A DNA stretch of 51,326 bases, taken from a virus. Below the pieces are notes generated by a model. That model was given only the letters and a program-made list of their open reading frames with translations. It searched no databases and was not told the origin of the DNA. The position numbers and the translations under genes are program-made. This document shows positions 727 through 45,297 of this stretch, piece by piece (the first letter of the stretch is position 1; each line of letters starts with the position of its first letter). The DNA is taken from positions 1 to 51,326 of the IMG/VR virus record IMGVR_UViG_3300032285_004475; one strand, given 5' to 3'.

Positions 727-2098
727 ATTTTTTACTAACCATTAAAAATTCATTATATTTCTGAGATTCTGAAATAGTGTCAGTTAGTCGATTACCCCAA
801 GTTCTGTTAACAACTGTGATTTCATTTAATATTGAAGGTTCACCGTATTTTAAAAACATTCTTTGGTAAAAATCACAGTCCATTAACCAATTCAGATTTT
901 CGTCAAAAAATATTAAATCATTATTCTTTAAAGTCAATCCACTTGGACAACCTAACGTGTTATTTCCTGACCAAACTGTACTATTCCATTGTGGAAAATA
1001 ATGTCTGTAAAAATTAATACCATCGTTGCTATGGTAAAACTGTGTAAAGAACCAATTAGTGTTTGAATTTTGTTCTATAAAATTAAATTGTTTTTCTAAA
1101 GAAGTTTCATCATAAATGAAGTCATCTTGAAATAAAATTTTAATCCACTTACCTTGGCATTTTTTTAATGATTCATTTATATTTGGTGAAATGACACCTC
1201 TACCTCTGTCATTAAAAGAATGGTTTATTTTTAATTTATCTGACCATTTATCACAAATATCTTTAATAGTGTTATCAACACTATGGTCTGAAATACTTAT
1301 TTCAAAATCTGTAAATGTTTGTCTTGATAATTTTTCAAAACTAAATTCTAAAAATTCACCACCTTTACCATTATACCCGTATGTTGGTATTGCAATTGAA
1401 AAATAAGGTTTTTCAGATAAAAAATTTTCCATTTTTTTAATATTCATACTAATATTTTTAGGGACTTGTAACGGGGAAAATATTTTTTTTGTGTTTTTAG
1501 TTTTAGTTGCTAATTCGTGAATTGTTTTTAATTCTGTACCGACATTAAAAACTCCATTCGCCCCTTTAATTATGAGTTTGATAATTAAATATGAAATTAC
1601 ATTTACGTAATCAAAATTACCAATTTGGTCAATCCAAGAATTATCATAAGGAAATGGGTTCGGCTTATGTGAGCATCTAATAATTAAAAAATCTTTAGAT
1701 GTCAATTGAACTAAACCATCTGAAAGTAATTTTGTATATGCGTACCAATTTTCACAATGAACAGGAACATCAGTTTCTTTGGGTAAATTTTGTGAATTAC
1801 TATAAACATAGTCAGTTGAAATATGAATTAATTTAATATTTGTTTCATTACAAAAATTTATTAATTCATGGACAAATTTATAGTTTGTATTCCAATGACT
1901 TTCACTGTCTTTTGAATAGGTATCAGTATTTGCAATACAATTTAGTATTACATTATAGGTATTTTCAGGTATAAAAGATTTAAAATTTTCGATTGAAAAA
2001 TTATTCTTTTTTCTTGAAACATAGTCCCATCCTGTTTGTTTTTGGATTTCTGAACCCAATAGTCCATCACCTAAAATTAAAACTTTTAATTCTCCCAT
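719..2098 (-). CDS. Fusion: RmlD-like sugar-nucleotide reductase plus GT2 glycosyltransferase
   Basis: A 459-aa two-domain protein. Residues 4-220 form an extended-SDR Rossmann domain like dTDP-4-dehydrorhamnose reductase (RmlD): GDGLLG nucleotide loop at 10-15, STDYVY at 94-99 and a Y119-x3-K123 catalytic pair. Residues 231-459 form a GT-A family 2 glycosyltransferase that opens with FSIAIPTYGYN and has a QDD acidic motif at 324-326. One chain could therefore finish a deoxysugar nucleotide and transfer it. RmlD alone is normally about 300 residues, so the reductase half is short and its substrate-binding region may be reduced. The gene overlaps the upstream dehydrase by 13 nt and the downstream gene by 8 nt. 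No frame break is seen at the junction, so the fusion looks genuine. Confidence 0.8.
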   Translation of the reverse strand: MGELKVLILGDGLLGSEIQKQTGWDYVSRKKNNFSIENFKSFIPENTYNVILNCIANTDTYSKDSESHWNTNYKFVHELINFCNETNIKLIHISTDYVYSNSQNLPKETDVPVHCENWYAYTKLLSDGLVQLTSKDFLIIRCSHKPNPFPYDNSWIDQIGNFDYVNVISYLIIKLIIKGANGVFNVGTELKTIHELATKTKNTKKIFSPLQVPKNISMNIKKMENFLSEKPYFSIAIPTYGYNGKGGEFLEFSFEKLSRQTFTDFEISISDHSVDNTIKDICDKWSDKLKINHSFNDRGRGVISPNINESLKKCQGKWIKILFQDDFIYDETSLEKQFNFIEQNSNTNWFFTQFYHSNDGINFYRHYFPQWNSTVWSGNNTLGCPSGLTLKNNDLIFFDENLNWLMDCDFYQRMFLKYGEPSILNEITVVNRTWGNRLTDTISESQKYNEFLMVSKKYA

Positions 2099-3390
2099 TT
2101 TTCTTTAAAAACATTCTCAACGTATTCAAATACATCGTCATTATAATGAGGAGCCGCACCTAAAAAGAATACTTTATCTAAAACTTTATTTGAGTTCGGA
2201 TATTTTTCGATAGTGTCCAAATGTGAATATCCTGGGTGGAATAATATATTTCCTGCAAAATAGTTTCTTGTTTGAATTTTATTTTCTTCTAAGAATGAAA
2301 CTAATTTATCTTTTAATTGCTTATCATCACAAATAAATGGTGTTCCAAACCAACAAGTATCTGATTTAGGTAAACTTTCTACCCCTTTAACTCCTTGAAC
2401 GTATTTAGTAATAATTGATTCAATTTTTATCTTACTATTTTTTCTTTTGGTATCAATTTCTTCAAATTTTGATAATTGAACCAACCCAATTGAACCTTGT
2501 AAATCCATAGGTTTTAAATTATAACCCATATTGGTGAAAACATATTTGTGGTCAATAATTCCATTGTATGAACCCAACCAATTACTAAATCTATTTTGAC
2601 AAGTACCACAAGATAATAAATTTGCAGAACCGACACAATAACAATCTCTACCCCACCAAGATATACTAACAAAAAGTTTCTTTAAATCCTCAATGTTTGT
2701 ACAAACCATTCCACCTTCACCTGTTGAAATGTGATGTGCTGGGTAGAATGATGAAGACCAAGCAACATAGTAATCTGAAATTGGTTTACCGTCCCACTTT
2801 GTTCCCAAAGTATCACAACTGTCACCAACTAATTGTATATTGTGTTTTTCACATAAAGATTTTAAGAAATCCATATCAGGAGGATTACCAAGAACTGGTG
2901 ATACAAAGATTGCTTTTGTTCTTGGAGTAATTTTTTCTTCAATTTTAGTTACATCAAAATTTAATGTATCCCACTCAATATCAACAAAAACAGGCACTAA
3001 ATTATTTTGAGCAATTGGAGCTATGGTTGTAGGGAACCCAACAGGTGATACAATAATTTCATCACCATCATTCCACCCAAAATATTTTTTTAATGCCGTT
3101 ATCAAGACCAAATTTGCCGAACTACCTGAATTAACCATGTGTGAAAATTTCACACCAAACATTTTTGAAAATTTATTTTCAAATTTGTAAACATTTTCAC
3201 CAGTAACTATCCATTTACCTGAAATTAAAGTTGTGATTGCCGATAGTATTTCTTGGTGGTCCCAAAATGGACCTGAATATAAAACTTGACTTTTTCCTGG
3301 TTCAAATTTTTGATTGTATAGATACTTTGGATTGTTTTCAATCAAGTATTCTTTTAAGTTTTCTAAGATTGCTTCTAAATTTTTTTCCAT
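2086..3390 (-). CDS. rfbH: RfbH/E1-type CDP-4-keto-6-deoxyglucose 3-dehydrase (PMP and [2Fe-2S])
   Basis: A 434-aa DegT/DnrJ/EryC1-fold protein. In place of the PLP-binding lysine of aminotransferases it has histidine: FYPAHHISTGEGG with H219-H220, the hallmark of the E1 dehydrase of 3,6-dideoxyhexose synthesis. Four cysteines (C250, C252, C261, C264) in GRDCYC...SCGTCQNRF match the family's [2Fe-2S]-binding region. E1 works with a reductase (E3) to remove the C3 hydroxyl of CDP-4-keto-6-deoxyglucose on the way to paratose, abequose or tyvelose. No E3, CDP-glucose synthase or 4,6-dehydratase is in the window, so the host or another part of the phage must supply them. It lies in an operon with SDRs and glycosyltransferases. 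Confidence 0.88.
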   Translation of the reverse strand: MEKNLEAILENLKEYLIENNPKYLYNQKFEPGKSQVLYSGPFWDHQEILSAITTLISGKWIVTGENVYKFENKFSKMFGVKFSHMVNSGSSANLVLITALKKYFGWNDGDEIIVSPVGFPTTIAPIAQNNLVPVFVDIEWDTLNFDVTKIEEKITPRTKAIFVSPVLGNPPDMDFLKSLCEKHNIQLVGDSCDTLGTKWDGKPISDYYVAWSSSFYPAHHISTGEGGMVCTNIEDLKKLFVSISWWGRDCYCVGSANLLSCGTCQNRFSNWLGSYNGIIDHKYVFTNMGYNLKPMDLQGSIGLVQLSKFEEIDTKRKNSKIKIESIITKYVQGVKGVESLPKSDTCWFGTPFICDDKQLKDKLVSFLEENKIQTRNYFAGNILFHPGYSHLDTIEKYPNSNKVLDKVFFLGAAPHYNDDVFEYVENVFKEKWEN

Positions 3391-3421
3391 ACGTTAATTA
3401 TAGGTTAATGAACTTTATAAA

Positions 3422-4195
3422 TCAAATACTAACCCAATCTAAAGGTAAAATATCTTGAGTATCTTTATGACCCGAAGGGCCAAACCAATTTTTTGGACCG
3501 ACTATCTTTTTCCCCACATTTTTATTTAAATAAGCCGCCCACCAACTAAATGTGCTATTTGCAATAATGTTATTTTCACATTCACTCATTAATTTAAAAT
3601 CTTGTAATTCATCTGTGAATGGTGAGTAAAATATATTATCACCTACAAAAGTTTCTCTAACCCAATACATGTCATCTGAAAAGAAAATAAATTTACTATC
3701 GGGGAATAACTTCATTGCGTTTAAATAATAACCTTTACTACAAGGTGAATGAAATGATAGGTTAATTCCATTCAAATAATCCCCTCTACGAATATGAATT
3801 GAGGTAAAATGATTATTATCAAAATCAATTTCATTTTTAAAATCTGATACTGAAATATCAGATAAATCAAATAAGTTAATAATATCTTCTTTATAATCTA
3901 TAAAATATTTTTCACTTTGGAAACTACCAACTAAGTGTAAATTTTTACTGTATGGTAATTCTTTATAAGAAAAAAAAGGTTCTTGATAAGAGGACTCAAA
4001 TGGATAATTTGAAATTATTGGTATTTTTTTAAAAATATTTTTAATGTAGTTATCTGATGTGTTTCCTTGTTGAGGGGTAAAACAATCGTGGAAATTAAAC
4101 CCGTATGTGTCGTTATTTCTTTTTGCTAACGCAACTGCTGCGGAGATTTGAAACATTTGGTTTCCTAAACCACCTTGTAAACGTGTAGAAATCAT
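3422..4195 (-). CDS. GT11 family glycosyltransferase (alpha-1,2-fucosyltransferase-like)
   Basis: A 257-aa protein with all landmarks of glycosyltransferase family 11: GGLGNQMFQ at 8-16, HIRRGDY at 134-140 (GDP-fucose binding region) and STFSWWAA at 214-221. Known members transfer fucose from GDP-fucose in alpha-1,2 linkage to galactose-type acceptors of O-antigens and capsules. Length is slightly below the usual 280-300 residues but the core is complete. Its start shares one base with the stop of the upstream GT2 gene; 31 nt separate it from the next gene, the only sizeable gap in this part of the operon. Fucose as donor is family knowledge, not proven here. Confidence 0.9.
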   Translation of the reverse strand: MISTRLQGGLGNQMFQISAAVALAKRNNDTYGFNFHDCFTPQQGNTSDNYIKNIFKKIPIISNYPFESSYQEPFFSYKELPYSKNLHLVGSFQSEKYFIDYKEDIINLFDLSDISVSDFKNEIDFDNNHFTSIHIRRGDYLNGINLSFHSPCSKGYYLNAMKLFPDSKFIFFSDDMYWVRETFVGDNIFYSPFTDELQDFKLMSECENNIIANSTFSWWAAYLNKNVGKKIVGPKNWFGPSGHKDTQDILPLDWVSI

Positions 4196-4917
4196 TATCT
4201 GACTAATTTTTGATATGGTTTTTTATTTCTAATTCTAGTTGCGTGGTCAGTAACCATATGCATATCAACTTTATGTTCATTAATTGGGTTTTCACCGTTA
4301 TAAACATAATTTATTTCAGACATAAATTTGTAGTGTTCAGGACCTGACATTTCAAGCATCGGAAACATGAAACATAAATCACCACTCCACTGCCAATAAT
4401 CACCATTTTCATCACGTAAATCTTCCTCTTTAATATTCCTCCATAAAAATGCTCTCCAAGTTCGGATGTGTGACGCAGTAAATCGACTATTTCTTAAATT
4501 TTCAAAATTAGTTTGAGGACTTGAAAAACCATGTGTCCCGTTTGAATATTTAAAACTACCATTGGCAATCCAAACATTTGGGTCTTTATAAACATTATTA
4601 ATTCTTTCAAATACTTTTGAATCAGGAAGCCAGTCATCTCCATCAACCTCAATCAAAAGTTCGTCGTCAGAAATATTTTCATTAAATCTAATTGTCCTAT
4701 CAAAGTTACCCGCTTGGTATAATTTTTTTTCATAGTCATCAACTAAAATAAAACGACTATCGTTTTTAATTAAATTTTTAATTTTTTCCACTGAACTGTC
4801 CGTAGACATATCATGAGTGATATAACAAGTATAATCTTTATAGGTTTGTCCCATAATAGATAAAATACTTCTTTCGACATATTTTTCAGCGTTATAAAAT
4901 CCAGTTAGTATTACCAT
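4195..4917 (-). CDS. GT2 family glycosyltransferase
   Basis: A 240-aa GT-A fold glycosyltransferase. It opens with VILTGFYNAEKYVERSI, typical of family 2, continues with IMGQTYKDYTCYITHDMSTD, and carries the metal- and nucleotide-binding VDGDDW (D92, D94, D95). No membrane segment is evident, so it acts in the cytosol. It is directly abutted on both sides (shared base with each neighbour), meaning tight translational coupling inside the glycan operon. Donor and acceptor cannot be told from sequence. Confidence 0.88.
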   Translation of the reverse strand: MVILTGFYNAEKYVERSILSIMGQTYKDYTCYITHDMSTDSSVEKIKNLIKNDSRFILVDDYEKKLYQAGNFDRTIRFNENISDDELLIEVDGDDWLPDSKVFERINNVYKDPNVWIANGSFKYSNGTHGFSSPQTNFENLRNSRFTASHIRTWRAFLWRNIKEEDLRDENGDYWQWSGDLCFMFPMLEMSGPEHYKFMSEINYVYNGENPINEHKVDMHMVTDHATRIRNKKPYQKLVR

Positions 4918-5591
4918 TATTTTACGTATTTTTTTAAAATTTTATAAGTATAATTTTCTTTATCAATCCTTTGTGAAATTAATTCGTTAATTTCCATATC
5001 ATTTTGAATAGATGGTGTTATAAATTTTGGTGAAACAAATTTAAAGTTTGGTTTTATATCTAATATATCACAAATAATTTTATATATTTCATAAACACCA
5101 ATTTGTTCAACACATGAAAAATTTAATATTTTTTTGTTGTGTTTTTTTATTAACTCACAAGTTAATGTTTTTACATCCTCAACATCAACTAATGCTCTTT
5201 TTGTATTTTTTTGTACTTCAACTTGTGAGTTTTTCTTAACCGATGTTACAAAAAAATTAACCAAATTATTTACGTTACCATTTTGACTAATAACTTGTGG
5301 TAATCTGATTATTAAATAATTTAATACATTTTCAGTTATAAATTTTTCAATATTTTTCTTATGGGAATAATAATCATTATTAACATGATTGGAAAAAATA
5401 CTACTAAAATATATTATTTTTGAATTTGGGTAATCTGAAATAGTACTAACTAATAATTTTTTTTCCCTTTCAAATTCCTCTTCCCGTTTTTCGTTGGAGT
5501 CCGATACACCTGATGCAAAAATGATTATATCAGAGTTACTATTAAACTCATCAATAAAAAGTTTTGCAATAGAACCGTTACCAACTACCAT
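4917..5591 (-). CDS. Small SDR-type nucleotide-sugar epimerase/dehydratase-like protein
   Basis: A 224-aa Rossmann-fold protein of the extended short-chain dehydrogenase type. Seen: VVGNGSIAK nucleotide loop at the N-terminus, IIYFSS near 59-64 (catalytic Ser) and Y74-x3-K78 in YYSHK. RALVDVEDV near 155 resembles the substrate-domain strand seen in epimerases. It is shorter than the usual 300-340 residues, suggesting a trimmed substrate domain. It probably acts on a nucleotide-linked sugar for the adjacent transferases; whether it epimerises, dehydrates or reduces cannot be decided. Confidence 0.75.
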   Translation of the reverse strand: MVVGNGSIAKLFIDEFNSNSDIIIFASGVSDSNEKREEEFEREKKLLVSTISDYPNSKIIYFSSIFSNHVNNDYYSHKKNIEKFITENVLNYLIIRLPQVISQNGNVNNLVNFFVTSVKKNSQVEVQKNTKRALVDVEDVKTLTCELIKKHNKKILNFSCVEQIGVYEIYKIICDILDIKPNFKFVSPKFITPSIQNDMEINELISQRIDKENYTYKILKKYVK

Positions 5592-5592
5592 A

Positions 5593-6324
5593 TTAAATAA
5601 TTTTTATATTTTTTTTGATTAAATCATCCATGTAATCATATGTTTCTTGGATAACTGCATAGTGTTCACCAAGTTTATATGTTTTATTAAATTGTGATAA
5701 TCTTTGTAATCTGGTATCGTATAATTCTTTCACATATTCTTTACTCAAAAATTTGTAGTGAAGTAATTTAATTTCCGTCTTATCACCTCTTTTACAATTT
5801 TCACAGAAACTTGCGTGTGCTCCCATACCAAAATTAACGTCTTTTTCTGGGTTAAAAATTATATTTTTACACATAGGTGCGTATGTTTCAGGTGACCCGA
5901 TTTGTAACTTATCAGTAATCAATGTTCCGTCATATTCGGGAAAAGTATCTGAAACTATGTTTCTTCCATCAATACTTGGAATGTCAATACCTTGTAATTT
6001 ATACTCGGTTAATTTTTCAATTAAATTAGGGTGATATACTAATTCATCACAATCTGATACAATAACCCAATCAACATTCTGTCCTCTACTGTATTTTTTA
6101 TAACAATTTGATTTGATTTGTGCGTTTAAACCGTCATGAAATTCATTATCACTACTCCATTTAATTACAGTTACTTTGTCGTATTTTTTGTAAATTTCGT
6201 CCGAAGAATCAGTTGACATATTATCAAAAACAAAGATTTTTGATGATATTTTTGAATGATAATCTAAAATAAAAGGTAAAATTTTAGACTCATTCCATGC
6301 TAAAATATAAGAATGTATGTTCAT
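5593..6324 (-). CDS. GT2-like glycosyltransferase (Glyco_tranf_2_4 type)
   Basis: A 243-aa protein starting MNIHSYILAWNESKILPFILDYH, the pattern of the Glyco_tranf_2_4/GT92-like group in which an asparagine-glutamate pair replaces the usual start. Acidic motif SDCDELVY at 90-97 would bind the metal and nucleotide. A C-x2-C pair (FCENCKRGD) and LLHYKF follow near residues 170-190, matching the family's H-Y/F-x-F motif. It overlaps the upstream gene by 4 nt. Cytosolic sugar transfer is likely; substrate unknown. Confidence 0.82.
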   Translation of the reverse strand: MNIHSYILAWNESKILPFILDYHSKISSKIFVFDNMSTDSSDEIYKKYDKVTVIKWSSDNEFHDGLNAQIKSNCYKKYSRGQNVDWVIVSDCDELVYHPNLIEKLTEYKLQGIDIPSIDGRNIVSDTFPEYDGTLITDKLQIGSPETYAPMCKNIIFNPEKDVNFGMGAHASFCENCKRGDKTEIKLLHYKFLSKEYVKELYDTRLQRLSQFNKTYKLGEHYAVIQETYDYMDDLIKKNIKII

Positions 6325-8342
6325 ATTTCTAATAATTTAATCCATTTTTCCATTATTTCTGAATTATTTAACAATGAAACATCATTGTTAGTTGCGTTAT
6401 TACCAAAAAATTCAGTACCTGTTTGGTAACACTCATCCTTAACTAAGGATGCACATTCACTAATTGACGACTGATATACTCGTCCAATCATATTAAACAT
6501 TTCTTGTTTATTTTCAAAATGACCTTTATGAATTACTTTATCTGATAATAAAGGTCTTACAGAATTGTTATAATATGTTGAGTCATTTATTCCTCCAAAA
6601 ATGTAAACCATTTCACATCCATCGTTTAATGCTCGTTCTATTGAAATGTGAGTTTGTTTGTTTTCATCTATACTTCCAATAATACCTGCAATTAAACTCT
6701 TATCTGATTTGTCAATTTTAACTAAATTAGTTTTAAGATTAGGTATTATTACAAAATCACCATCATACGATGAATGATAATCCCTATGTGTTTCATTTAG
6801 AAACACCGCAGTATCCCAAAACTGTCTTTTTTCTCCTACCTCATACAAGTTTTTTTCATGACATGATAAGATAACTTTATCAACAAATGGTCTTTGACCC
6901 AGCTCAACAAAATGTGTGATAAGAATGTCTTCTTTTGAAAAGGTTAGTTCATTACTTAATTTTGATTTACACTTATCCAAATGCCAGTTATGAGGACCGT
7001 ATAGTGTACAGTCATAACCCATTTTATTAAATTCATTTGTTAAATTTACAAATGCGGTGGTTGACCCACCCTTGTCTGAAAACCCTGTTAAAATTTTAAT
7101 TTTTTTAGTGGTATTTTTATCTTCATAACTATTCAAAATAGACGTAGATAAATCTTTCAAATTTTCAAATGATTCAAAAAGAGTAACTTTATTTTGTGGG
7201 AAATCATTTAATAATGATAATGTAGTTTCAATTCCTGAATCAGAAAAAACAACTTTTCTTATATCCTCAAAGTTAGTCACTTCACTATTAAAATTAATTA
7301 CGTTTTCTAAAAATAAAATTTTATCAACGTTTGGGTAAAGGTTTGAAATTATATTTGAAAATTTAGAGTCATCAAATATTATTAAATCAACTTTAGGCTC
7401 TGAAATTTTATAGTAACTATTTGGTTGTGTAAGTACAGGACCGTTTGGTGTATTAATATACCATTTACCATCACCTACTTTATACCCAGGAGTTGATTGA
7501 ATGTCTATAATTTCAATCTTATCTTTTTTCAAGTTATTATGTAATGAATAATTTTTACTCATTGTAATAATTGAAACGTTTGAGTTTTCATTTAATTTTT
7601 TTGATACCTCATAAATTAAACTGTCAGACAAATCACTATCAGTAAAAACTAAAATTTTCAAATCATCTAAGTTAGATAACTTTACTTTTGTAGGTAAATC
7701 TAATTTATATTTTTGAGCAAATTTAACTCTATTTTTTTCCCATGAGTTATTGGTTTGACCAATAGATTTATGTGTTACTCTAATGTTTGTGGTTACACCA
7801 ATTTTAACATTTTCTAAATAATTTCTAAAACAGAAATTAACATCATACATGTGAAACCCGCTAACATTTTCATCAAATAAATGTTTGATTTTACTCTTAT
7901 CTATTGCGATGAATAAACCATCGACAATTACCACTTCTTTCAAAGAATTATTTAAAGAATCTGAATATCTTGACTCCCATTTTTTCCCATCATGTTCATG
8001 ATTAACAATACCCCACATTTTACTTCTATCTTCCCACCACATACCACTTTTTGGCATTTCCGTAGTACCAGCAATTCCGACTATTGAGTAATCAGGATTT
8101 TTTTCAAATAACTTTTCAAGTTTTTGTCCCCAATTTTTTGTGTCAAAATATATATCATCGTGACAAAGGACAACAATATCATTTGATGACTCTTTTATTA
8201 TTTCATTATAAACTTGTGATAAGTTTTTTTCACCATTTGTAACTTTTTCAATTACTTCAGTTTTTGGGTGACCACAAGATTTTTTTAAATATTCTTTTAA
8301 TTGTGGATTTGAAACTCTGGTACTATACCCTATTGTAATCAT
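6321..8342 (-). CDS. Chimeric GT-A plus GT-B glycosyltransferase
   Basis: A 673-aa protein starting at the ATG at 8342, which forms an ATGA overlap with the upstream GT25 gene; a frame extension to a TTG at 8354 is possible but less likely. Residues 1-225 are GT-A-like, with a VLCHDDIYFD metal-binding motif (H61-D62-D63) and GMWWEDRSKMWG. Residues 230-400 contain Rossmann-like blocks ending in LIIFDD. Residues about 415-673 look like a GT-B (family 4-like) enzyme: KILTGFSDKGGSTTAFVNL at its start, then an IIGSIDENKQ strand and a late ECASLVKDECYQTGTEFFG region. Two transferases in one chain could add consecutive sugars. The middle part may be an incomplete domain. Confidence 0.78.
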   Translation of the reverse strand: MITIGYSTRVSNPQLKEYLKKSCGHPKTEVIEKVTNGEKNLSQVYNEIIKESSNDIVVLCHDDIYFDTKNWGQKLEKLFEKNPDYSIVGIAGTTEMPKSGMWWEDRSKMWGIVNHEHDGKKWESRYSDSLNNSLKEVVIVDGLFIAIDKSKIKHLFDENVSGFHMYDVNFCFRNYLENVKIGVTTNIRVTHKSIGQTNNSWEKNRVKFAQKYKLDLPTKVKLSNLDDLKILVFTDSDLSDSLIYEVSKKLNENSNVSIITMSKNYSLHNNLKKDKIEIIDIQSTPGYKVGDGKWYINTPNGPVLTQPNSYYKISEPKVDLIIFDDSKFSNIISNLYPNVDKILFLENVINFNSEVTNFEDIRKVVFSDSGIETTLSLLNDFPQNKVTLFESFENLKDLSTSILNSYEDKNTTKKIKILTGFSDKGGSTTAFVNLTNEFNKMGYDCTLYGPHNWHLDKCKSKLSNELTFSKEDILITHFVELGQRPFVDKVILSCHEKNLYEVGEKRQFWDTAVFLNETHRDYHSSYDGDFVIIPNLKTNLVKIDKSDKSLIAGIIGSIDENKQTHISIERALNDGCEMVYIFGGINDSTYYNNSVRPLLSDKVIHKGHFENKQEMFNMIGRVYQSSISECASLVKDECYQTGTEFFGNNATNNDVSLLNNSEIMEKWIKLLEI

Positions 8343-8968
8343 TTTATTAACCAATTATAATCTGTAACTTTATTTTGTATATCCGAATAATCAACTAATT
8401 GTGTTGATAATCTTGGGTAAAAAGTATAACAATTATTTTCTTTTTGTAACATTGAATAAACAATATCAACTTGAAATTGATATGTTTTTAACAACGACAA
8501 AATTTGTTCATACATTTTTATATTAAACCCAATCATATGGGATGAATAAGTATATGAAACTTTTTTCACAAAGTCATTAACTTTGACAGGTTCAGGATAA
8601 TTACCGTGTATATTATGGTTACCCCCAAAATATATCATATCCCAATTTGGAGGTAAATTTTGAAAATATTTATCGACATTTAATATTTCTTTTTCAAAGA
8701 CACAATCATCTTCTAAAATCAAAACATTATTGTATTTGTTTTCTAAACACCCTTCAAAAATTTTTATAGTAGTTAAAACTAGACCTAACTCACCATCTGT
8801 TAGATTGGTTGGGTATTTTGATAAATCAATGTTTTTACCATCAACGGCTGATACTCTTTCAAACTCAGTAAGATTAAATTCTTTTGATTGTTTAATAAAA
8901 TGTTCCCATCTATCAGGTCTTCGGTCTAAATTTATACAAAATATTTTACCAAAATATTTTTGAATCAT
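8339..8968 (-). CDS. GT25 family glycosyltransferase (LPS-type)
   Basis: A 209-aa protein with family 25 signatures: IFCINLDRRPDRW at 9-21, RVSAVDGKN near 38-46, a G-E-x-G-L stretch near 59-63 and NVLILEDDC with E86-D87-D88. Family 25 enzymes include beta-1,4-galactosyltransferases of lipooligosaccharide synthesis and occur in large phages. Length is normal for the short bacterial type. It begins within the last base of the dUTPase gene and ends in an ATGA overlap, so it belongs to the same transcript. Galactose as the donor is only a family-based guess. Confidence 0.9.
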   Translation of the reverse strand: MIQKYFGKIFCINLDRRPDRWEHFIKQSKEFNLTEFERVSAVDGKNIDLSKYPTNLTDGELGLVLTTIKIFEGCLENKYNNVLILEDDCVFEKEILNVDKYFQNLPPNWDMIYFGGNHNIHGNYPEPVKVNDFVKKVSYTYSSHMIGFNIKMYEQILSLLKTYQFQVDIVYSMLQKENNCYTFYPRLSTQLVDYSDIQNKVTDYNWLIK

Positions 8969-9552
8969 TATATTCCCGTACTACCAAAACCTTTATTACC
9001 TCTATCTTTATCTTCTATTTTATCCACTTTATTTAATTTAACCCATCTACCTGTAATACATCTTGCAACTACTGCTTGTGCAACTTTCATACCTTTTGTA
9101 ACAACAAATTCGTGGTTATTTGTATTAAATAATATTGCTTTGATTTCACCTGTGTAACCTTCATCAACAGTTCCTGGTGAGTTTAAAACCATTAATCCTT
9201 GATTGATAGCTAAACCACTTTTTGACCTAACTTGTATTTCATAATCTTGAGGTAAATTAACAGAAACACCTGTTGGAACTAATGCTCTACCAAACGCAGG
9301 TATTTTAACTTCTTCATTTGCATACAAATCAAACCCACTGTCTGATTCATATGCGTAACTTAATTCTTTTTCATTTGTTGATACAAAATCTATTGTAATT
9401 TTTCCGTCACCAATAAATTGATTAGCATCTTCAAATTCATTAATGTCAAATCCTAATTCATTATTTAATTCTTGTTCTTGTAACTGATTAAAGTCCTCTA
9501 CTAATTTTTTTAATTCCTCTAATTCTTTTGCAAATTCAAATTTTTCACTCAT
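8968..9552 (-). CDS. dut: dUTP diphosphatase (trimeric dUTPase) with N-terminal extension
   Basis: A 194-aa homotrimeric dUTPase that hydrolyses dUTP to dUMP and PPi, keeping uracil out of DNA and supplying dTMP precursor. All five family motifs are visible: SDSGFDLYA (70-78), RSKSGLA (109-115), GTVDEGYTGE (127-136), KGMKVAQ (153-159) and the C-terminal DRGNKGFGSTG (183-193). The first 50 residues are an acidic Leu/Glu-rich extension that most phage and bacterial dUTPases (about 150 residues) lack; it may be a coiled coil or partner-binding arm. It overlaps the upstream exonuclease gene by 4 nt and leads straight into glycosyltransferases. Confidence 0.95.
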   Translation of the reverse strand: MSEKFEFAKELEELKKLVEDFNQLQEQELNNELGFDINEFEDANQFIGDGKITIDFVSTNEKELSYAYESDSGFDLYANEEVKIPAFGRALVPTGVSVNLPQDYEIQVRSKSGLAINQGLMVLNSPGTVDEGYTGEIKAILFNTNNHEFVVTKGMKVAQAVVARCITGRWVKLNKVDKIEDKDRGNKGFGSTGI

Positions 9553-10247
9553 AAATTTGTTAATTTTATTAAAACTTTAATTAATACTTCAACATCTTTT
9601 TCACAATAATCTTGTATTTCTTGGTATTTGTTTTCATTCCAAAATGAATTGTGAACTTTGTTTCCTGTCACTTCCATATTTTTTGAACTTTCAATACCAA
9701 GTGATACACACATAAGTTCTAATGAACTTATTGCTCCAAATTGTCCGTACTGCCAAATCTCTTTAGTATCAATCGCTTTAATTTCCCACGGTTTAGTATC
9801 ATAAGAAGGAAGTATTGATGATGGTAAAATACCATTAACTAACATTCTTTTGGCCAATACAGGAATATCAAAGTTTTTAAGATTATGTCCACAAAGGATA
9901 AATCCTAACTTATCAACACGATTTAATAATGCGTTAACATCTGTAAGTAATGCCTTTTCATCTGAGTTAAAAAAACTTTGTTTTTTAATATCACCTTTTG
10001 GGTCAAGAAATCCTACTGAAACACAAACAATCTTTGAAAACTCAGGAACTAAAGCTGCACGATTGACAAAAATTTCGTCTAAGGGTTTTTCAGCATCTTC
10101 AGGAAACCTTTTTTGAAACCAATCTAAATAATTAATAAATTGGAAATGAAGTTCAGGATAATCCGTTTTAAAATTTTCATAGTTACTTGAAATACCGACA
10201 GTTTCAATGTCAATAAATAAGATTTTGTGTAATGGGTGTTTTATCAT
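9549..10247 (-). CDS. DEDDy-type 3'-5' exonuclease (DnaQ-like)
   Basis: A 232-aa stand-alone exonuclease domain. Seen: ExoI FIDIETVG (D13, E15), ExoII GHNLKNFDIP (D127) and ExoIII YCEKDVE (Y214, D218), the Y-x3-D arrangement of the DEDDy subclass. It resembles free-standing exonucleases related to the proofreading domain of family B polymerases. It could process DNA ends or nicks, assist recombination or degrade host DNA. The window's DNA polymerase carries its own exonuclease motifs, so this is an additional nuclease. It overlaps the glycosyltransferase upstream and the dUTPase downstream by 4 nt each. Confidence 0.85.
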   Translation of the reverse strand: MIKHPLHKILFIDIETVGISSNYENFKTDYPELHFQFINYLDWFQKRFPEDAEKPLDEIFVNRAALVPEFSKIVCVSVGFLDPKGDIKKQSFFNSDEKALLTDVNALLNRVDKLGFILCGHNLKNFDIPVLAKRMLVNGILPSSILPSYDTKPWEIKAIDTKEIWQYGQFGAISSLELMCVSLGIESSKNMEVTGNKVHNSFWNENKYQEIQDYCEKDVEVLIKVLIKLTNL

Positions 10248-11458
10248 ACGATTGATTTATAAAATTCTGCTCTTGTTTTTGTTACTACATCTAAACTATA
10301 TCTTTGCGAAACGTGTTCATATAATCTTTCACCCATGTCAATCCTCATATTTGGGTTTTGAACTAATTTTTTAATGTATTTCGCCCAATCACTATGATTT
10401 CTTGCGTCATCCACTAACAATGCGTTTCCATCAGTAAACTCACCATTTTTCATTGCGTGTTTTAAGTCAATTGTATACGGACCATAGTTACTTGCGATTA
10501 ACGCTTTTTTATAGAAACCTGCTTCAATAACTTTAAGTTGTGATTTTACCTTGTTAAACATATGTTGTTTAATTGGTGCCAAAGATATATCAAATTTTGA
10601 ATAGTTACGTGCATATGATGTAACAGGTTTGGTCCAAACTCTACGGTATGGTAAACTCTTTTCGTTTTCAAAAGGAGTTTCAACAAATAGTTCTAAATGT
10701 TTCTTATATTCAGGTGATACAATTGAATAGTTGTTGGTAAAAATCTTTTCATAATCATACCATACAGTTTCGTGAGGTTTAATTGGTCGTCTTGTTTGTT
10801 CCCCTGTTTGTTGGTTAATTTCAGTCATCATACCACGAGTATCAAAACCACAAACTACATATTGTATTTTGTCACTAATATCTGAAAGTTTTGAAACCAT
10901 TCCGTCAAGAAGCATTAAATCATGTAAGTGTGATGAACCACCTAACCAACCTACTCTTACTAACTCAGATTCTTCAGTTGGTTCATTAAATTGTCCTTCT
11001 TTTTGGTCAATTGCATTAGGGAAAATTACAACATTTTTATTAAATTTACGGATTTCATCTGCAAATAATTCAGTTGTAGTTGTAACGTATTTTGCAAGTT
11101 TTAAATTTGCAACAATCTTTTCGTGTATTTTTTCTTGAAGAATTAATTGGTGAAGTGGATGTTCTTTGCCGGGTAACCAATAATCATCAATATCTGCGAT
11201 TGTTATAATACCCATTGAATTCAAAATTGGAATTGTCTTAATTGACAAATCCATATCTTGTCCTAATGAACGATGGAAATGAACAATTTGATAATCTTTA
11301 AAATAATTTAAATTTGTTAAATCAGGATTAAACTCAATATCAACATGAAAATCATCTCCGTATTTTGCTTGTAAATGAGTATGTGGTGTAATTGACCTAA
11401 ATCTTCCAACCCCTGTAGTATCGGATGGAATAACTAAAACTTTAATTTTTTCTTTCAT
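10244..11458 (-). CDS. GT-B glycosyltransferase (family 4-like)
   Basis: A 404-aa protein beginning MKEKIKVLVIPSDTTGVGRFR; an upstream in-frame ATG at 11494 would run into the terminator region, so 11458 is preferred. The fold is GT-B: N-terminal HFHRS and IADIDDYW segments, a linker with VVIFPNAID, then a C-terminal donor domain with VRVGWLGGSSH and LKVIEAGFYKKALIASNYGPY, the region that contacts the nucleotide sugar in family 4. Related proteins occur in T4-like phages of marine and freshwater bacteria. It is the first gene of the long minus-strand operon and has its own leader after the terminator at 11501-11527. Confidence 0.82.
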   Translation of the reverse strand: MKEKIKVLVIPSDTTGVGRFRSITPHTHLQAKYGDDFHVDIEFNPDLTNLNYFKDYQIVHFHRSLGQDMDLSIKTIPILNSMGIITIADIDDYWLPGKEHPLHQLILQEKIHEKIVANLKLAKYVTTTTELFADEIRKFNKNVVIFPNAIDQKEGQFNEPTEESELVRVGWLGGSSHLHDLMLLDGMVSKLSDISDKIQYVVCGFDTRGMMTEINQQTGEQTRRPIKPHETVWYDYEKIFTNNYSIVSPEYKKHLELFVETPFENEKSLPYRRVWTKPVTSYARNYSKFDISLAPIKQHMFNKVKSQLKVIEAGFYKKALIASNYGPYTIDLKHAMKNGEFTDGNALLVDDARNHSDWAKYIKKLVQNPNMRIDMGERLYEHVSQRYSLDVVTKTRAEFYKSIV

Positions 11459-11500
11459 AATGAAAAAGATAAATGAAAGAAGATTATAATTCAACTATAA

Positions 11501-28181: not shown

Positions 28182-29848
28182 GTAATATTACATTAGTAAC
28201 AGGTTTATGGAATATTGGGAGGGATAATTTAGAAGAAGGATGGTCCCGTTCTTTTTCACATTATTTGGAAAAATTTGAACAACTATTAAAGGTTGAAGAA
28301 AACTTAATAATTTTTGGTGAAAAGGAATTGGAAGAATTTGTTTGGGAAAAAAGAAATCAAAACAACACCCAGTTTATTCTGAGGGATAAAAGTTGGTTTA
28401 TTGAAAATGATTTTTATGATAAAATTCAAAAGATAAGAACAAATCCTGATTGGTATAATCAATCAGGGTGGTTAAAAGAATCGACACAAGGTAGATTAGA
28501 AATGTATAATCCTCTTGTTATGTCCAAAATGTTTTTGTTAAATGACGCGAGAATAATGGATAGGTTTGATTCGGAATTTTTATTTTGGATTGATGCGGGA
28601 TTAACCAATACTGTTCATCCTGGTTATTTTACACACGACAAAGTTTTAGATAAGTTTGGCAAATATATTAATAAATTCATATTTGTTTGTTTTCCATATA
28701 ACGCAAATAATGAAATACACGGATTTTCATATCCATCAATAAATGATTGGGCAAATGATGATGTAAAAAAAGTTGCTCGTGGTGGTTTCTTTGGTGGTCC
28801 AAAAGAAACTATATCACAGATAAATGGTGAGTATTATAACTTATTAAATGAAACCTTATCACAAGGTTACATGGGAACCGAAGAGTCAATATTTTCAATA
28901 ATGGTATATAAGTTTCCTGAACTTGTAGATTACTTTGAAATTGAATCAAATGGTTTGTTCGGGAAATTTTTTGAGGATTTAAAAAATGATGAATTAGTTA
29001 AACAAACTGAATATAAAGTTGTTGTTCCTGATTTGGATATTGAAAAAGTCGGTTTATATGTTATTTCGTTTAATAGTCCAAAACAATTTGAAACTTTAAT
29101 TAAATCAATGATTGAATATGATAGGGATTTTATAGATAAAACAAAAAAATATTTACTTGATAATTCAGTTGATTTAACTACAACACCAAGATATGTAGAA
29201 TTATGTGAAGAGTATGGTTTTGAACATATTAAAAAAGATAATCTTGGAATTTGTGGTGGAAGACAGTTTGTGTCAGACCATTTTAATGAATCCGATTTAG
29301 ACATTAGTATTTGGTCAGAGGATGATATGTTTTTTCAAAATAAACCTGAAGAAACTTGCCGAAATGGATTTAATCGTTATACACCTAATCTTTATCAAAA
29401 ATGTTTAGAAATAGTTCAAAAAGAAAAGTTTGATTTTCTTAAAATTAATTTTACAGAGTTTTACGGTGATAATAGTGTTCAGTTTAGTTGGTATAATACT
29501 CCGCAAGATTTTAGGAGCTCTAATTGGCCAAATAATCCTAAACTACCAAATAATGGATTATCTTCAAACGCTCCTTTAACTGAATTTAAAAATATTAAAT
29601 CTTATAGAGGTTTACCATATGTGACCGGAGAAATTTATTATTGTAATTGGACACATTTTATAACTAAAGAAGGAAATCGTAAAATGTTTCAAGACACAAA
29701 ATGGGGTAGTCCTTATGAACAAACGTGGATGTCACACATTTATCAAGAAACTATTAAAGGAAAAATTAATCCTGGATTATTGTTATTAACTCCTGTTGAA
29801 CATAATCGTTTTCATCATTATGACGGCTCATTAAGACGAGAAAATTAA
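28178..29848 (+). CDS. Fusion: HtrL/YibB-like plus GT2-like glycosyltransferase
   Basis: A 556-aa bidomain protein. Residues 1-275 are HtrL/YibB-like: SNITLVTGLWNIGR, LEMYNPLVMSKMFLL near 107-121, FWIDAGLTN at 136-144 and ARGGFFGGPKE at 200-210. Residues 290-556 are a GT-A unit: VGLYVISFNSPKQFETL, DNLGICGGRQFVSDHF near 354-369 and SIWSEDDMFF near 378-387 (D382-D383). Last gene of the second glycan operon; its TAA overlaps the stop of the antisense HNH gene in a shared TTAA. Confidence 0.75.
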   Translation: MSNITLVTGLWNIGRDNLEEGWSRSFSHYLEKFEQLLKVEENLIIFGEKELEEFVWEKRNQNNTQFILRDKSWFIENDFYDKIQKIRTNPDWYNQSGWLKESTQGRLEMYNPLVMSKMFLLNDARIMDRFDSEFLFWIDAGLTNTVHPGYFTHDKVLDKFGKYINKFIFVCFPYNANNEIHGFSYPSINDWANDDVKKVARGGFFGGPKETISQINGEYYNLLNETLSQGYMGTEESIFSIMVYKFPELVDYFEIESNGLFGKFFEDLKNDELVKQTEYKVVVPDLDIEKVGLYVISFNSPKQFETLIKSMIEYDRDFIDKTKKYLLDNSVDLTTTPRYVELCEEYGFEHIKKDNLGICGGRQFVSDHFNESDLDISIWSEDDMFFQNKPEETCRNGFNRYTPNLYQKCLEIVQKEKFDFLKINFTEFYGDNSVQFSWYNTPQDFRSSNWPNNPKLPNNGLSSNAPLTEFKNIKSYRGLPYVTGEIYYCNWTHFITKEGNRKMFQDTKWGSPYEQTWMSHIYQETIKGKINPGLLLLTPVEHNRFHHYDGSLRREN

Positions 29849-30465
29849 AAGATAATTTTATTACCTTTGATAAGATTATCCTTAGCCCAAAGTGGTTGTA
29901 AGTTGGTATAATGACAAAGTTTATAAATTTCATCTTCAGATTTTGCTGACGACAATGGTATTATATGGTCAATGTGCCATCCATAAAAACCGTGATTTTC
30001 CCAAGTCATACTATCAGTAAATTTTTCTTCTAAATAATGTTTAAGAAATTCGGGAGAACATCCAATAACTTCATTAATAGATTTGTTTTTTTTATAACTT
30101 TTAAAGTTAAGTAAATTCCTTAATCGAGAACTTAATTTATGTCTCAATTTAAATAAAACATCTTCATTATATTTTTTTTTACGATAAATTCTGTGTTTAT
30201 CTATATATAATTTATTTTTATCTTTAATTTTTTCTTTATTTATTCCGTAATATTTTGAACGGTATTCATTACGTTCTTCGCGGGTTTTATCGTACCATAT
30301 TTTATAGTATTGAGGATTTTGTAATCTTTTAATCTTTTCATCCTCACTCTGACAAATTTTGCATCGACTTTTATAATATTGTGTTCCATTTTTACTAACG
30401 GATTTTTTATTGTACTCACAAACTTCTTTTTCAATATTACATTTACTACAAATTTTTGTTTTCAT
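29845..30465 (-). CDS. HNH endonuclease (homing-type)
   Basis: A 206-aa protein. The N-terminus has two C-x2-C pairs (C6/C9 and C35/C38), a zinc-ribbon common in phage HNH enzymes. The middle is a highly basic helical DNA-binding region. The C-terminus has the HNH core: GWHIDHIIPLS (H164, D166, H167), CHYTNLQPLW (H185, N188) and KDNLIKGNK. Free-standing HNH genes of this type act as mobile endonucleases in T-even-like phages. It is antisense to the glycan operon, overlaps its last gene by 4 nt and overlaps the small gene upstream by 20 nt. Confidence 0.88.
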   Translation of the reverse strand: MKTKICSKCNIEKEVCEYNKKSVSKNGTQYYKSRCKICQSEDEKIKRLQNPQYYKIWYDKTREERNEYRSKYYGINKEKIKDKNKLYIDKHRIYRKKKYNEDVLFKLRHKLSSRLRNLLNFKSYKKNKSINEVIGCSPEFLKHYLEEKFTDSMTWENHGFYGWHIDHIIPLSSAKSEDEIYKLCHYTNLQPLWAKDNLIKGNKIIF

Positions 30466-40863: not shown

Positions 40864-41994
40864 TTAAATTACGTACATATTTCTTGGGAATGCTCTAAAC
40901 TTCATTTGTTTGTTTAGATTTTCAGCGATTAATGCTTCACGTTCCATTATTTTTTCAGGACGTAATCTTGTTAATCTTCCGTCAGCACCAATTAATTCTT
41001 CAATTAATTTAGCTTTTTCATCTTTACCTTCAGTTGCTAATGATGTGTAATCCATCGTTAATTCAGAATCAGGTGTTTTTAAATTACCTGAATATTTTCC
41101 TCTAACTTTTGATAATGTTTCTTTACAACCCGCAACAAAATATCTTCTAACCCATTGTTGTGCAGGTTCATTTAAATCCGCCCATGCAATTGAATTCATC
41201 GGAACATCTGAAGGAAGTTTGATTATATCAGGATTTGCTGCTAAACAAGCATCTCTATCCTCAGGACCAACATCATAATACCAATACCAAACTTGGTTAT
41301 GTCTTAATGATGAATTACCAAAATCAAATTTACCACCAGGTGTTTGCATTAAGTGAATTGCTTTTTTTCCGTTAGGTAGCCCTGTAATTCTATATGTTAA
41401 GTCACCCGCAATAATTCTTCTTTGAATGTTAATTTCTTGTAATCTTAACATCATATCAAATGCCGGCATCATAAAATATGACCCGGTATATCCCATTTGT
41501 GAATAACCTGCCGGCCCACCCATACCATAACCACCTAACGCCCCAAAACTCCATGGGTCAAATAAAACATTTGTTAATTCAGATGGTGTAAACCAAAGTA
41601 GTTCGTTAATTTCACGACCTGCAGGAATTTCATAAACTTGTTGGTTTGGAACTAATGTGAAAAAATCCTTTTTTAAAACCCAGTCACCAAGAGGTGATGA
41701 TTGTAATCCAACTATTTTGGAATATGCTTGAGCGTATCTATTTTCAAAATCTAAACTTTTTGTCACAAAAGCTCTTGATAAAGATTGAGTATCTAAATTT
41801 AAATTATTTAATGATGTCCATTGTGATTCAATTAACCAATCTTGTACATACTGAGCATAATCTCCGATAGAAAATTCTAAGATTGAGTCCATTTGTTCAT
41901 CTTCTAATTCAATTGAACGAATTGGGGCTCCTAATACGTGTCTAACTTTTGTATATAGTTGACTTCTGTAAGGTTCTGCGATTATTGTATTCAT
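40864..41994 (-). CDS. Neck / head-completion protein (gp13-like)
   Basis: A 376-aa protein resembling the neck proteins of T4-like phages: MNTIIAEPYRSQLYTKVRHVLGAPIRSIELEDEQMDSILEFSIGDYAQYVQDWL is the typical connector-type N-terminus. A Gly/Met-rich loop follows near 150-180 (GALGGYGMGGPAGYSQMG), then a helical C-terminus (EKAKLIEELIGADG) and RAFPRNMYVI at the end. Such proteins close the head and accept the tail. It has a TATTTAT element 16 nt upstream and is followed by the 111-aa gene. The assignment to gp13 rather than another connector protein is a judgement from the N-terminus and context. Confidence 0.6.
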   Translation of the reverse strand: MNTIIAEPYRSQLYTKVRHVLGAPIRSIELEDEQMDSILEFSIGDYAQYVQDWLIESQWTSLNNLNLDTQSLSRAFVTKSLDFENRYAQAYSKIVGLQSSPLGDWVLKKDFFTLVPNQQVYEIPAGREINELLWFTPSELTNVLFDPWSFGALGGYGMGGPAGYSQMGYTGSYFMMPAFDMMLRLQEINIQRRIIAGDLTYRITGLPNGKKAIHLMQTPGGKFDFGNSSLRHNQVWYWYYDVGPEDRDACLAANPDIIKLPSDVPMNSIAWADLNEPAQQWVRRYFVAGCKETLSKVRGKYSGNLKTPDSELTMDYTSLATEGKDEKAKLIEELIGADGRLTRLRPEKIMEREALIAENLNKQMKFRAFPRNMYVI

Positions 41995-42017: not shown

Positions 42018-43523
42018 TCAATTCAGAGTATAAATTAAATCTTGTGTTGGAATTTTAAACATACTTGAACTAAAAGCAACTGTTTTGTTTTTAAAAATAT
42101 AAACTTCTTTATTAATATTTGAAAAAATTAACAAGTCGGTATTGAATTTTTTAACAAAACCTTTGATTTTAATATGATAGAAACCCTCAATTACTTCCAT
42201 ATTTAAAATTGGTTTTACTTGAGCGTTTTGTATTTTATTATCAAAATTTACTGTTAAATCAGTCCCTGCAAAATCTTCTTTTGAACCCAAACTACCTACT
42301 ACAGTAGCGGTTCCCTCACCAAATTCTTGATTGATTTTTTTTGCAACATATTCCTCAAGTTGACCACCTTTATCATGTGTTCTTTTTAAAAGTTTCATAA
42401 TCTTATCAAGAGTTTTAGACCCTTTAAAAATTCTTTCACCAAAAAAACTCAGATATTCACAAAATTTATTTATTTCTTCTACTTGTTGTGAAGGTGTTAC
42501 CCCAATAAAATTTAATGTTGGTTTATTAACTTTTGTAAGTACGACATTTAAATCATCAACTAAAATTTTAAACCCAATATAATTTGTGTTTAATTTATTA
42601 ATTACAGAACGACCTGGTTGTTCTAAGTCGTAGATACCTGAAGATGAGTCTTCAGAGTATTGATTGTTTTCACGCCACTTATCAGGTAAAACTCTTTTCA
42701 ATGTATTATCAATACATCTTCTATAAGTCCAAAGAACATTTTTATTATTACTAAAAATATCTGAATAATCAGATACGTTTTCGTATAAAAGTTTTTTTTG
42801 TGAAATTGACTCGTTCAATTTTTTTTCAGTTTTTGATTTGTATAACTCGTTAACAAATTCCCAATTGATAACATCCCAAAAATTTTCAATATATTCGTCT
42901 CTTTTATTTTGGTATTTTAAATAATAAGCGTGTTCCCACAAATCTAAACCTAACAACGGAAAACCACCCTTGTTTATTATATTCATAAGTGGATTGTCCT
43001 GATTTGAGGTGGACATAACTTTCAATCTACCTGTATCGGTTAACACTAACCAACACCATCCTGAACCAAATCTTTTTCTTGAAATTTCTTCAAATTTAGT
43101 TTTGAAGTTACGATATGTCCCAAATTGTTTAACAATCTTTTCAAATACCTCACCACTTGGTTTTTGTGGGGTTGGTGATAACATCTTCCAAAACAATGCG
43201 TGGTTAAATGCTCCACCTGCGTTGTTTCTTATTGTTGTATTATATTTTGAAATTTGTTTAACAATATTTTCTAATTCAACATCACCATAATCTTTTTTAC
43301 GAAGAGCTGAATTTAATTTTTTAACATACCCTTTGTAATGTTTCTGATAGTGAAACTTCATTGTTTCAGGGTCAATAAATCTTCTTAATGATGCGTAACC
43401 ATAAGGTAATTTATCAATACCTATGGTTTTCATTTCGTTAATAAAAAATTTGGTTTCAGGTTGAGTTTCCTCACCTAATATACGACTAACTAATGACTCT
43501 GATACTAAATTTAACGATTTCAT
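42018..43523 (-). CDS. Fusion: Mn-type superoxide dismutase plus PD-(D/E)XK-like domain
   Basis: A 501-aa protein. Residues 35-230 are a full Fe/Mn superoxide dismutase: ligands H58, H108 (GGAFNHALFW), D194 and H198 (LDLWEHAYY) are all present, with GSGWCWLVL. Gly104 and Gln175 (STSNQDNPLM) sit where manganese enzymes have Gly and Gln. Residues about 240-501 are new: E390/E391 in KGGQLEEYVAKKI, D422 in AGTDLTV, and Q435-x-K437 (NAQVKP) follow the E...D...(E/Q)xK order of a PD-(D/E)XK nuclease. A 34-residue leader precedes SOD. A late element lies 5 nt upstream. Virion or late-infection protection from superoxide with DNA binding or cutting is possible; the nuclease call is moderate. Confidence 0.82.
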   Translation of the reverse strand: MKSLNLVSESLVSRILGEETQPETKFFINEMKTIGIDKLPYGYASLRRFIDPETMKFHYQKHYKGYVKKLNSALRKKDYGDVELENIVKQISKYNTTIRNNAGGAFNHALFWKMLSPTPQKPSGEVFEKIVKQFGTYRNFKTKFEEISRKRFGSGWCWLVLTDTGRLKVMSTSNQDNPLMNIINKGGFPLLGLDLWEHAYYLKYQNKRDEYIENFWDVINWEFVNELYKSKTEKKLNESISQKKLLYENVSDYSDIFSNNKNVLWTYRRCIDNTLKRVLPDKWRENNQYSEDSSSGIYDLEQPGRSVINKLNTNYIGFKILVDDLNVVLTKVNKPTLNFIGVTPSQQVEEINKFCEYLSFFGERIFKGSKTLDKIMKLLKRTHDKGGQLEEYVAKKINQEFGEGTATVVGSLGSKEDFAGTDLTVNFDNKIQNAQVKPILNMEVIEGFYHIKIKGFVKKFNTDLLIFSNINKEVYIFKNKTVAFSSSMFKIPTQDLIYTLN

Positions 43524-43527: not shown

Positions 43528-43535
43528 TATAAATA
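43528..43535 (-). promoter_or_regulatory. TATTTATA late-type promoter element
   Basis: Minus-strand TATTTATA about 5 nt before the ATG of the SOD-fusion gene; it sits right after the helicase stop codon. Confidence 0.6.
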
Positions 43536-43536: not shown

Positions 43537-45297
43537 TTACTTACTATTGATTTCGTTAAGTATTTGTTCAACAATATCTACAGAATTTTCATCTACATCA
43601 CCCATAACTGTACCAATAATCTGTTTCTTCTTTATAAGAATGTCGTAGATAACACCTTCGATTGTATTTTCAAATAGTGGATAGTATATCGAAACTGAAT
43701 TTTTTTGTCCGTATCTGTACGCTCTATCTTCGGCCTGACTATGTTCTGCGGGTACAAATGATAAGTCGTTCATAATAACGGCTTCACCTGCAGTTAGTGT
43801 TAATCCAACACCCGCAGCTTTCATATTACCACAGAAAACTTGTATTTTATCACTCTCTTGGAACTTGTCAACAGCATCCTGTCTTGCAGGTTTTGTTGTT
43901 GACCCATCTAAATAAACAGATTTCTTACCAAAGTGTTCATGTATTTTTTTAAGTGGTTCAGTAAAGTTACTAAAAATAATAACTTTTTTACCTTGTTCAA
44001 TTATGTTTTCGGCGAGTTCAATTGTAATTGATATTTTTTCTTCAGCGATTACTTGTCTTACTTTCATAAGTTTAGAAAACTGAACTGAAAGTGATTTTGA
44101 CTCGTCTTGTCTGTTGTTATACCAATCATAATATTCACCCATCAATCCCTCGTATAATCTTGATTTCAAACGAAGATAAACAGGAGTCATAATTTTTTCA
44201 GGTAAATCTGAAACATCAGTTTTTAATCTTCTTAAAATTTGACGTGATGTTCTTTCCCTTAATTCTTCTAAATTGGACGCTCCTGTAACATTCCAAATCT
44301 TTTTACCACCAACTCTAAACTGATATCCTCCACAATATCTAATTGCGTATGCTTGCCAGTTCTGACTCACAGGACTATCAATAAGTTTTAAAATATTATA
44401 ATAATTCATTGGACGAGAAGTCATAGGAGTTCCTGTTAACAACCAAAGTTTCTTAATGTTTTTGGTTACATCCATTATAATCTTTGTTCTTTGGGCTTGA
44501 GCATTCGAAACATAATGTGCCTCATCAATAACAACCAAATCAAATTTTGAATTAAGAATTATTGAATTGTTTTTATCCTTTGGGTCGTGGAAGTTTTTAA
44601 GAATATCGTAGTTAACAATTACATAATCGGATTGTTCAAACTTCTTACCTTCACAGATATAAACTGATTTATCTGTATAATTTTTAATTTCCCTTTCCCA
44701 ATTTATTTTAAGTGACGCTGGACAAATAATTAAAACTTTATTGGCACCACTTTCTAACGACGCAATTACTGTAGATGTCGTCTTACCAAGACCCATGTCA
44801 TCGGCTAAAATGAACTTATCATTTTTTAATAACTTTTCTATTGCTTCTTTTTGGTGTGCAAGTGGAGGTCGGTTTTCATATTTTGTATAATCAACGTCAA
44901 CTAAGTTTTCAGTGTATTGTTTAATAACCGCAGCTTTCGGTATCCAAAAATCGTGAATAGTTTCACCACTAAAAATTTTACCCCAAATATGATATGATTT
45001 ATCTTTTTCGACTAAAATTTTTTCAACATAAACTTTGTCAGGTTCTTTAATGAAAGGATTATCGGCAACAAGTTTTTGTGAAAAGTATGAATCAATTTCA
45101 ACCCATTTCTTGGCAACTTTTGGAACTACTGTATTGAAATCGATTATATAATCACACTGAGCCCTAGTTGGAACATATTTTTTATTGGTTTCAATCTGTT
45201 TTTTTAACTTTAAGATATAGTTATTTGAGCCTTGATAATTTTCAAGGATGGAGATTGCTCTTTGTTCTACACTTAAATGTCCTGATTCAGTAGTCAA
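43537..45297 (-). CDS. SNF2-family DNA helicase/translocase
   Basis: A 586-aa superfamily 2 ATPase. DDMGLGKTT (166-174) is the Walker A, VIDEAH (256-261) motif II, LTGTPMTSRP (287-296) motif III, and the C-terminal lobe has AGVGLTLTAGEAVIM and AEDRAYRYGQ, the SNF2 motifs V and VI. It is like SMARCAL1/HARP-type annealing helicases, which in phages may act in fork repair and recombination next to UvsW-type enzymes. The first 140 residues are a unique domain. The start is a TTG at 45297; no ATG lies before the conserved core. It is divergent from the tail gene at 45355. Confidence 0.9.
   Translation of the reverse strand: MTTESGHLSVEQRAISILENYQGSNNYILKLKKQIETNKKYVPTRAQCDYIIDFNTVVPKVAKKWVEIDSYFSQKLVADNPFIKEPDKVYVEKILVEKDKSYHIWGKIFSGETIHDFWIPKAAVIKQYTENLVDVDYTKYENRPPLAHQKEAIEKLLKNDKFILADDMGLGKTTSTVIASLESGANKVLIICPASLKINWEREIKNYTDKSVYICEGKKFEQSDYVIVNYDILKNFHDPKDKNNSIILNSKFDLVVIDEAHYVSNAQAQRTKIIMDVTKNIKKLWLLTGTPMTSRPMNYYNILKLIDSPVSQNWQAYAIRYCGGYQFRVGGKKIWNVTGASNLEELRERTSRQILRRLKTDVSDLPEKIMTPVYLRLKSRLYEGLMGEYYDWYNNRQDESKSLSVQFSKLMKVRQVIAEEKISITIELAENIIEQGKKVIIFSNFTEPLKKIHEHFGKKSVYLDGSTTKPARQDAVDKFQESDKIQVFCGNMKAAGVGLTLTAGEAVIMNDLSFVPAEHSQAEDRAYRYGQKNSVSIYYPLFENTIEGVIYDILIKKKQIIGTVMGDVDENSVDIVEQILNEINSK

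Follow-up and report, generated by a model that had tools for sequence, protein, structure and literature searches.

The internal head proteins and Alt of phage T4 are cargo that carries a capsid targeting sequence and is cut by the prohead protease gp21 (PMC9026906, PMC5694885). The specificity of gp21 is L/I-X-E (PMC9026906); in Alt, the cuts fall at ITE-6 and LTE-619 (PMC5694885). Superoxide dismutases (SODs) are also encoded by viruses. The Cu/Zn enzyme A245R of PBCV-1 is the product of a late gene, is packaged in the virion and has been associated with reduced superoxide in early infection (PMC7019647), and SODs of freshwater phages have been described as genes for defence against reactive oxygen species (ROS) (PMC6802176).

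The window analysed here, a stretch of 51,326 nucleotides, is a 51-kb fragment of a phage genome. A single ORF matches positions 42018..43523 on the minus strand exactly, starts with ATG and encodes 501 amino acids arranged as a leader, a SOD, a linker and a C-terminal PD-(D/E)XK-like domain. An earlier note, made from the sequence alone, had described this gene as a SOD half fused to a second half, and the ORF, the Pfam matches and the pattern of conservation agree with that description. The SOD (residues 36-230; 42834..43418, minus strand) matches Sod_Fe_N (6e-22) and Sod_Fe_C (6e-42), and the PDB sequence matches of the protein are SODs, the best with an E value of 4.5e-60. All four metal ligands that had been pointed out (H58, H108, D194 and H198) are invariant in 35/35 dereplicated homologues that contain the SOD, and so are the second-shell residues H62, Y66 and Q175 together with W196 and E197; Q175 occupies what we take to be the manganese-type position of the family. 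By its sequence, the SOD half is thus an intact manganese-type SOD. The full-length AF2 model was not used for active-site geometry, since its SOD part was poorly modelled with a shallow alignment. In a tree with 45 bacterial SODs, the phage SODs form one group (SH-aLRT 100). The closest bacterial matches are mostly from Bacteroidota, which suggests these bacteria as the source of the SOD and as the host of the phage.

The fusion is no one-off: it recurs in hundreds of IMG/VR matches and at one locus, between a helicase gene and a neck gene. Scanning IMG/VR with the whole protein returned at least 596 related stretches, some of which may be other SODs, and the best 80 of these at least 596 align along the whole fusion at 48-98% identity; a profile of the C-terminal domain returned 522 stretches. 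One relative (G001) encodes the fusion at 98% identity, and UniProt holds a 501-residue protein, A0A6J5L953, that is 91% identical over the C-terminal domain and is named only 'superoxide dismutase'. Among phage records, none covers 80% of the query protein. Because the same full-length fusion is present on many independent contigs, it is neither a product of chance nor of chimeric assembly. It is found in large phages, mostly from freshwater. Of the loci checked, 224/224 have the T4-type SNF2/UvsW-like helicase gene (43537..45297, minus strand) upstream, and 225/238 have the neck or head-tail adaptor-like gene, which matches Ad2 (40864..41994, minus strand), downstream, although these are not independent counts, as one contig may have been entered as several loci. 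The placement between neck and helicase genes seen in the window is therefore the rule in the family. Elsewhere in the window, glycosyltransferase genes, an aminotransferase gene and a nucleotide-sugar epimerase-like gene form one block on the minus strand (2086-11494).

The C-terminal domain (residues 249-501; 42021..42779, minus strand) consists of a helical part followed by the PD-(D/E)XK-like core. Sequence comparison with Pfam, PHROGs and PDB profiles gave nothing convincing for this half. An AlphaFold model built from an alignment of 39 homologues reached a pLDDT of 91, and Foldseek against the PDB placed I-Ssp6803I first (probability 1.00, E 5e-3), followed by Hjc resolvases (E 0.08) and, lower, RecU. 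No PDB match fell below 1e-3, so that support for the core fold is good but not overwhelming. Against viral models, Foldseek returned A0A6J5L953, which is the same protein, and several proteins annotated as PD(D/E)XK; the BFVD entry A0A8D9CCA0, a 1113-residue protein of an uncultured marine phage, contains the whole fold of the domain (TMq 0.81). In our model a long helix holds E390, D422 directly precedes a strand, and the QxK motif is on the strand that follows, an order that is usual for this fold. The residues that the earlier note had singled out, E390, D422, Q435 and K437, are invariant in 35/35 SOD-containing representatives, as are D417 and G420. A SOD-free relative of 290 residues (L343:5974-6846), encoded by the 735-kb uncultured phage LR756501 (LR756501.1), retains E, D, D and QxK (as QCK) at 24.5% identity. 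Taken together, the fold matches, the order of E, D and QxK, and the conservation of these residues in so distant a relative make a PD-(D/E)XK family member with a helical extension the best reading of this half, and the core that the earlier note expected from structure prediction is present by AF2 and Foldseek. That D and QxK never vary points to catalysis more than to binding alone, and the domain is probably catalytic. The C-terminal domain of the window was absent from the phage records searched, while a SOD-less version (L159) matched two records, both of one 735-kb uncultured phage. A pattern search of bacterial genomes gave four matches, none of them a relative.

The presence of Hjc and RecU among these fold matches raises the question of whether the domain is a head-maturation or branch-resolving nuclease that acts during packaging while the SOD protects it, neither part being injected. 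The conserved place beside the neck gene would fit this role, as would the fact that the C-terminal domain is the part kept by every member. However, these matches are weak, and many PD-(D/E)XK proteins would give them; an endonuclease VII homologue is also encoded elsewhere in the window (29845-30465). We regard a packaging nuclease as quite improbable.

Not all members of the family carry the SOD. Although both halves are in one ORF in most relatives, the SOD is absent from 20/69 dereplicated proteins with the C-terminal domain. In one such protein (L178) MKKIEIEKL is followed in frame by KSIISEGKSER where the SOD would stand, and the leader and both of the putative cleavage sites described below are retained. 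A larger SOD-less clade has a similar type of leader that continues into VLSE/SKAEKC (here and below, a slash marks a putative cut). The sites are degenerate (PTE, STE or no E) in several short SOD-less forms, among them the shortest members of this clade. The tree of the C-terminal domain forces two changes of state, which places the origin of SOD-less versions, by sequence, in at least two events that kept this domain. These are probably in-frame losses rather than gains, as the deep clades contain the SOD; the outgroup branch (8.8) is too long for rooting, so that loss is likely but not proven.

The gene is preceded by TATTTATA, a putative late promoter-type element on the minus strand (43528..43535) that ends 4 bp before the ATG. 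Of all heptamers in the 45 bp ahead of ORFs, TATTTAT is the commonest in two relatives, where it precedes 64/243 ORFs in the sense orientation versus 22 in antisense, and 44/181 versus 17 (sense/antisense ratio 2.6-2.9). It precedes several head genes as well as the fusion gene, and 49/62 distinct homologous genes, in keeping with the earlier description of a late-type element at this position. The distance to the ATG is about 10-25 bp in other clades versus 4 bp here. An ordinary leader behind a -10 element would be longer than this, and the element may not be a simple promoter. The T4 late promoter TATAAATA was also considered; it shows no enrichment across the window (14 versus 11.2 expected) and is present at the fusion gene only as its reverse complement, on the other strand, and TATTTAT was taken instead.

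Conservation is uneven along the protein, with a mean pairwise identity among the 35 dereplicated SOD-containing proteins of 76% for the SOD, 50% for the C-terminal domain and 34% for the leader. This leader (residues 1-30; 43434..43523, minus strand), a putative capsid targeting sequence, is variable and ends in FFINE. Nine alignment columns are >90% glutamate, and among these only E30, E197 and E248 have L or I at -2 in at least 34/35. E197 is part of the SOD motif DLWEH; outside the SOD active site, E30 and E248 are the only conserved [LI]xE. The first (INE/M; codon 43434..43436, minus strand) fits [LI]xE in 35/35 at the very end of the variable leader. The second (LYE/N) lies in a disordered linker (residues 238-248; 42780..42812, minus strand) in which AlphaFold has no confidence and where the columns neighbouring E248 are 45% identical; a further putative site in this linker, LNE/S at E238, is present in 26/35. 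At both E30 and E248 the -2 position alternates between I and L, with V in a few homologues, and -1 takes seven different residues. With L or I two before E in 24% of cases in these proteins, one such site alone would prove little. A distant SOD-containing clade (L364-L373) came from another scan after the [LI]xE rule had been set, and in it site 1 fits in 5/6, one having V at -2. An internal start at M31 was considered as the cause of the conservation of E30, but A stands there in 4/35 and mostly also in the later clade, and -2 stays L/I.

These putative sites bear on the earlier idea that the fusion is packaged uncut, as a DNA-bound antioxidant shielding the packed genome. Such a role could draw on the same leader, late-type element and head-gene evidence, and a nuclease-like fold could bind DNA. 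Yet E248 in the linker is conserved in 35/35, with L/I at -2 in 34/35 and a fit in 6/6 of the later clade, and the invariant D and QxK suggest more than binding, leaving an uncut packaged fusion very improbable. The earlier note's pairing of a SOD with a PD-(D/E)XK-like domain behind a late-type element is supported by family membership, conservation, predicted structure and the promoter-like element. Rather than staying a fusion enzyme, however, the product is probably a polyprotein in which the two putative protease sites would separate the SOD from the nuclease-like domain. The note's idea of a virion-packaged antioxidant gains support.

With some reserve, we favour the view that large T4-like phages make this protein as a capsid-cargo polyprotein, and rate at slightly better than even a self-separating two-enzyme precursor that would release a SOD and a nuclease in the capsid for delivery with the genome. 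The precursor would be made late in infection and carried into the prohead core by its leader of ~30 residues. A gp21-type prohead protease would then cleave behind E30 and E248, with E238 as a possible third site, so that the manganese SOD and the PD-(D/E)XK-like protein would come free within the head; both would be ejected into the new host with the DNA. The SOD may remove superoxide in the newly infected cell or shield the particle, and the other product may act on host, branched or competitor DNA. From sequence we infer that the protein is expressed late, packaged, cut and injected, and that both its parts are active. A gp21-like protease (Peptidase_S77) is encoded by four relatives (G001, G002, G004 and G007; 156-242 kb records), and all four (4/4) have a gp23-like capsid protein with LINE/A at residue 60; genes of both types are absent from the 51-kb window fragment. 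A point against capsid cargo is that a nuclease inside the head would have to leave the phage genome intact, for which the analysis gave no reason. Alternatively, this could be an ordinary auxiliary gene, whose SOD protects the infected cell and whose C-terminal domain tethers it to DNA, with nothing packaged or cut. Freshwater phages do carry SOD and other ROS-defence genes, which their describers read in this way (PMC6802176), and both halves stay in one ORF in most relatives. However, an auxiliary gene leaves unexplained the conserved [LI]xE in an otherwise variable leader and linker, the leader without a SOD, and the element common to head genes, and we consider it rather unlikely.

Leaders of a similar pattern precede unrelated payload genes in G003, and the leader is retained in SOD-less forms; the resemblance of the window leader to other leaders is weak (E 0.15), and the pattern was found after looking. 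Six adjacent genes of different kinds in G003 (L203; G003:C1:162981-168165), one with a P-loop motif, encode a common N-terminus, MNLQE(N/S)IxRI.. followed by [LI]xE. This pattern, too, was chosen after looking, and the six genes are a candidate capsid cargo set with one leader type. Another common leader type, (V/I)xL(T/N)E.(D/E/G)L..(I/L/F)(I/V)xK(R/K)(V/I/F).., begins ten unrelated proteins (G001:C1:222628-241513; G003:C1:112932, 128407 and 176579), and a search for it (as LTESDL) found no match in phage records or papers. Many small proteins start with MK(I/V/Y/L)I(I)TE(S/N)Q (L178:3874-5025; G003:C1:40415 and 160400; several in G001), like the start of T4 Alt that is cut at ITE-6. A DHH-phosphoesterase-like start (YFHQDLDGVATAL) stands behind a short MKKIISE or MKNLLKE leader in two proteins (G001:C1:15004-16407; G003:C1:135366-136772).

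If our favoured reading of capsid cargo is correct, the fusion would represent a type of phage cargo not seen before, with the SOD as a cassette lost in frame from some lineages that retain the nuclease. To our knowledge, T4-like cargo that enters the host with the DNA consists of host-takeover or anti-restriction proteins. We know of no SOD among T4 cargo and of no virion-delivered antioxidant enzyme in any bacteriophage, and the fusion would be the first. A search for 'phage-encoded superoxide dismutase' found no paper, and a packaged or fused phage SOD was not described in the literature searched, both with partial coverage. If the SOD is injected, phages would be under selection from superoxide at the moment of infection, an idea already put forward for the chlorovirus PBCV-1. 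Leaders with conserved [LI]xE sites may also allow cargo to be predicted from sequence in uncultured T4-like phages, and SOD-containing and SOD-less relatives at one locus make function testable by natural comparison.

The closest described systems each resemble a part of this protein. The SODs of PMC6802176 and A0A6J5L953 are, like the fusion, freshwater phage SODs, and a nuclease half, leader and cut sites go unmentioned in the accessible parts of the former account. The PA5oct group and Vibrio phage 2.275.O are likewise large phages with Fe/Mn SOD homologues, which match the SOD half only, at 22-30% identity. A245R is also a virus-encoded SOD, but it is a Cu/Zn enzyme of an algal virus with an unrelated fold and no nuclease domain, and its packaging is established where that of the fusion is only inferred. 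I-Ssp6803I shares E, D and QxK in matching elements with the C-terminal domain; unlike it, archaeal Hjc and RecU, the C-terminal domain has an extra helical N-terminal half and no sequence match to them, and its activity is predicted. Like T4 cargo, the fusion has a short N-terminal leader and [LI]xE sites, a resemblance in how it may work, and relatives of its phage have a gp21-type protease and a gp23-type capsid. Unlike T4 cargo, this putatively packaged protein is a single chain that carries two enzymatic domains separated by a second site.
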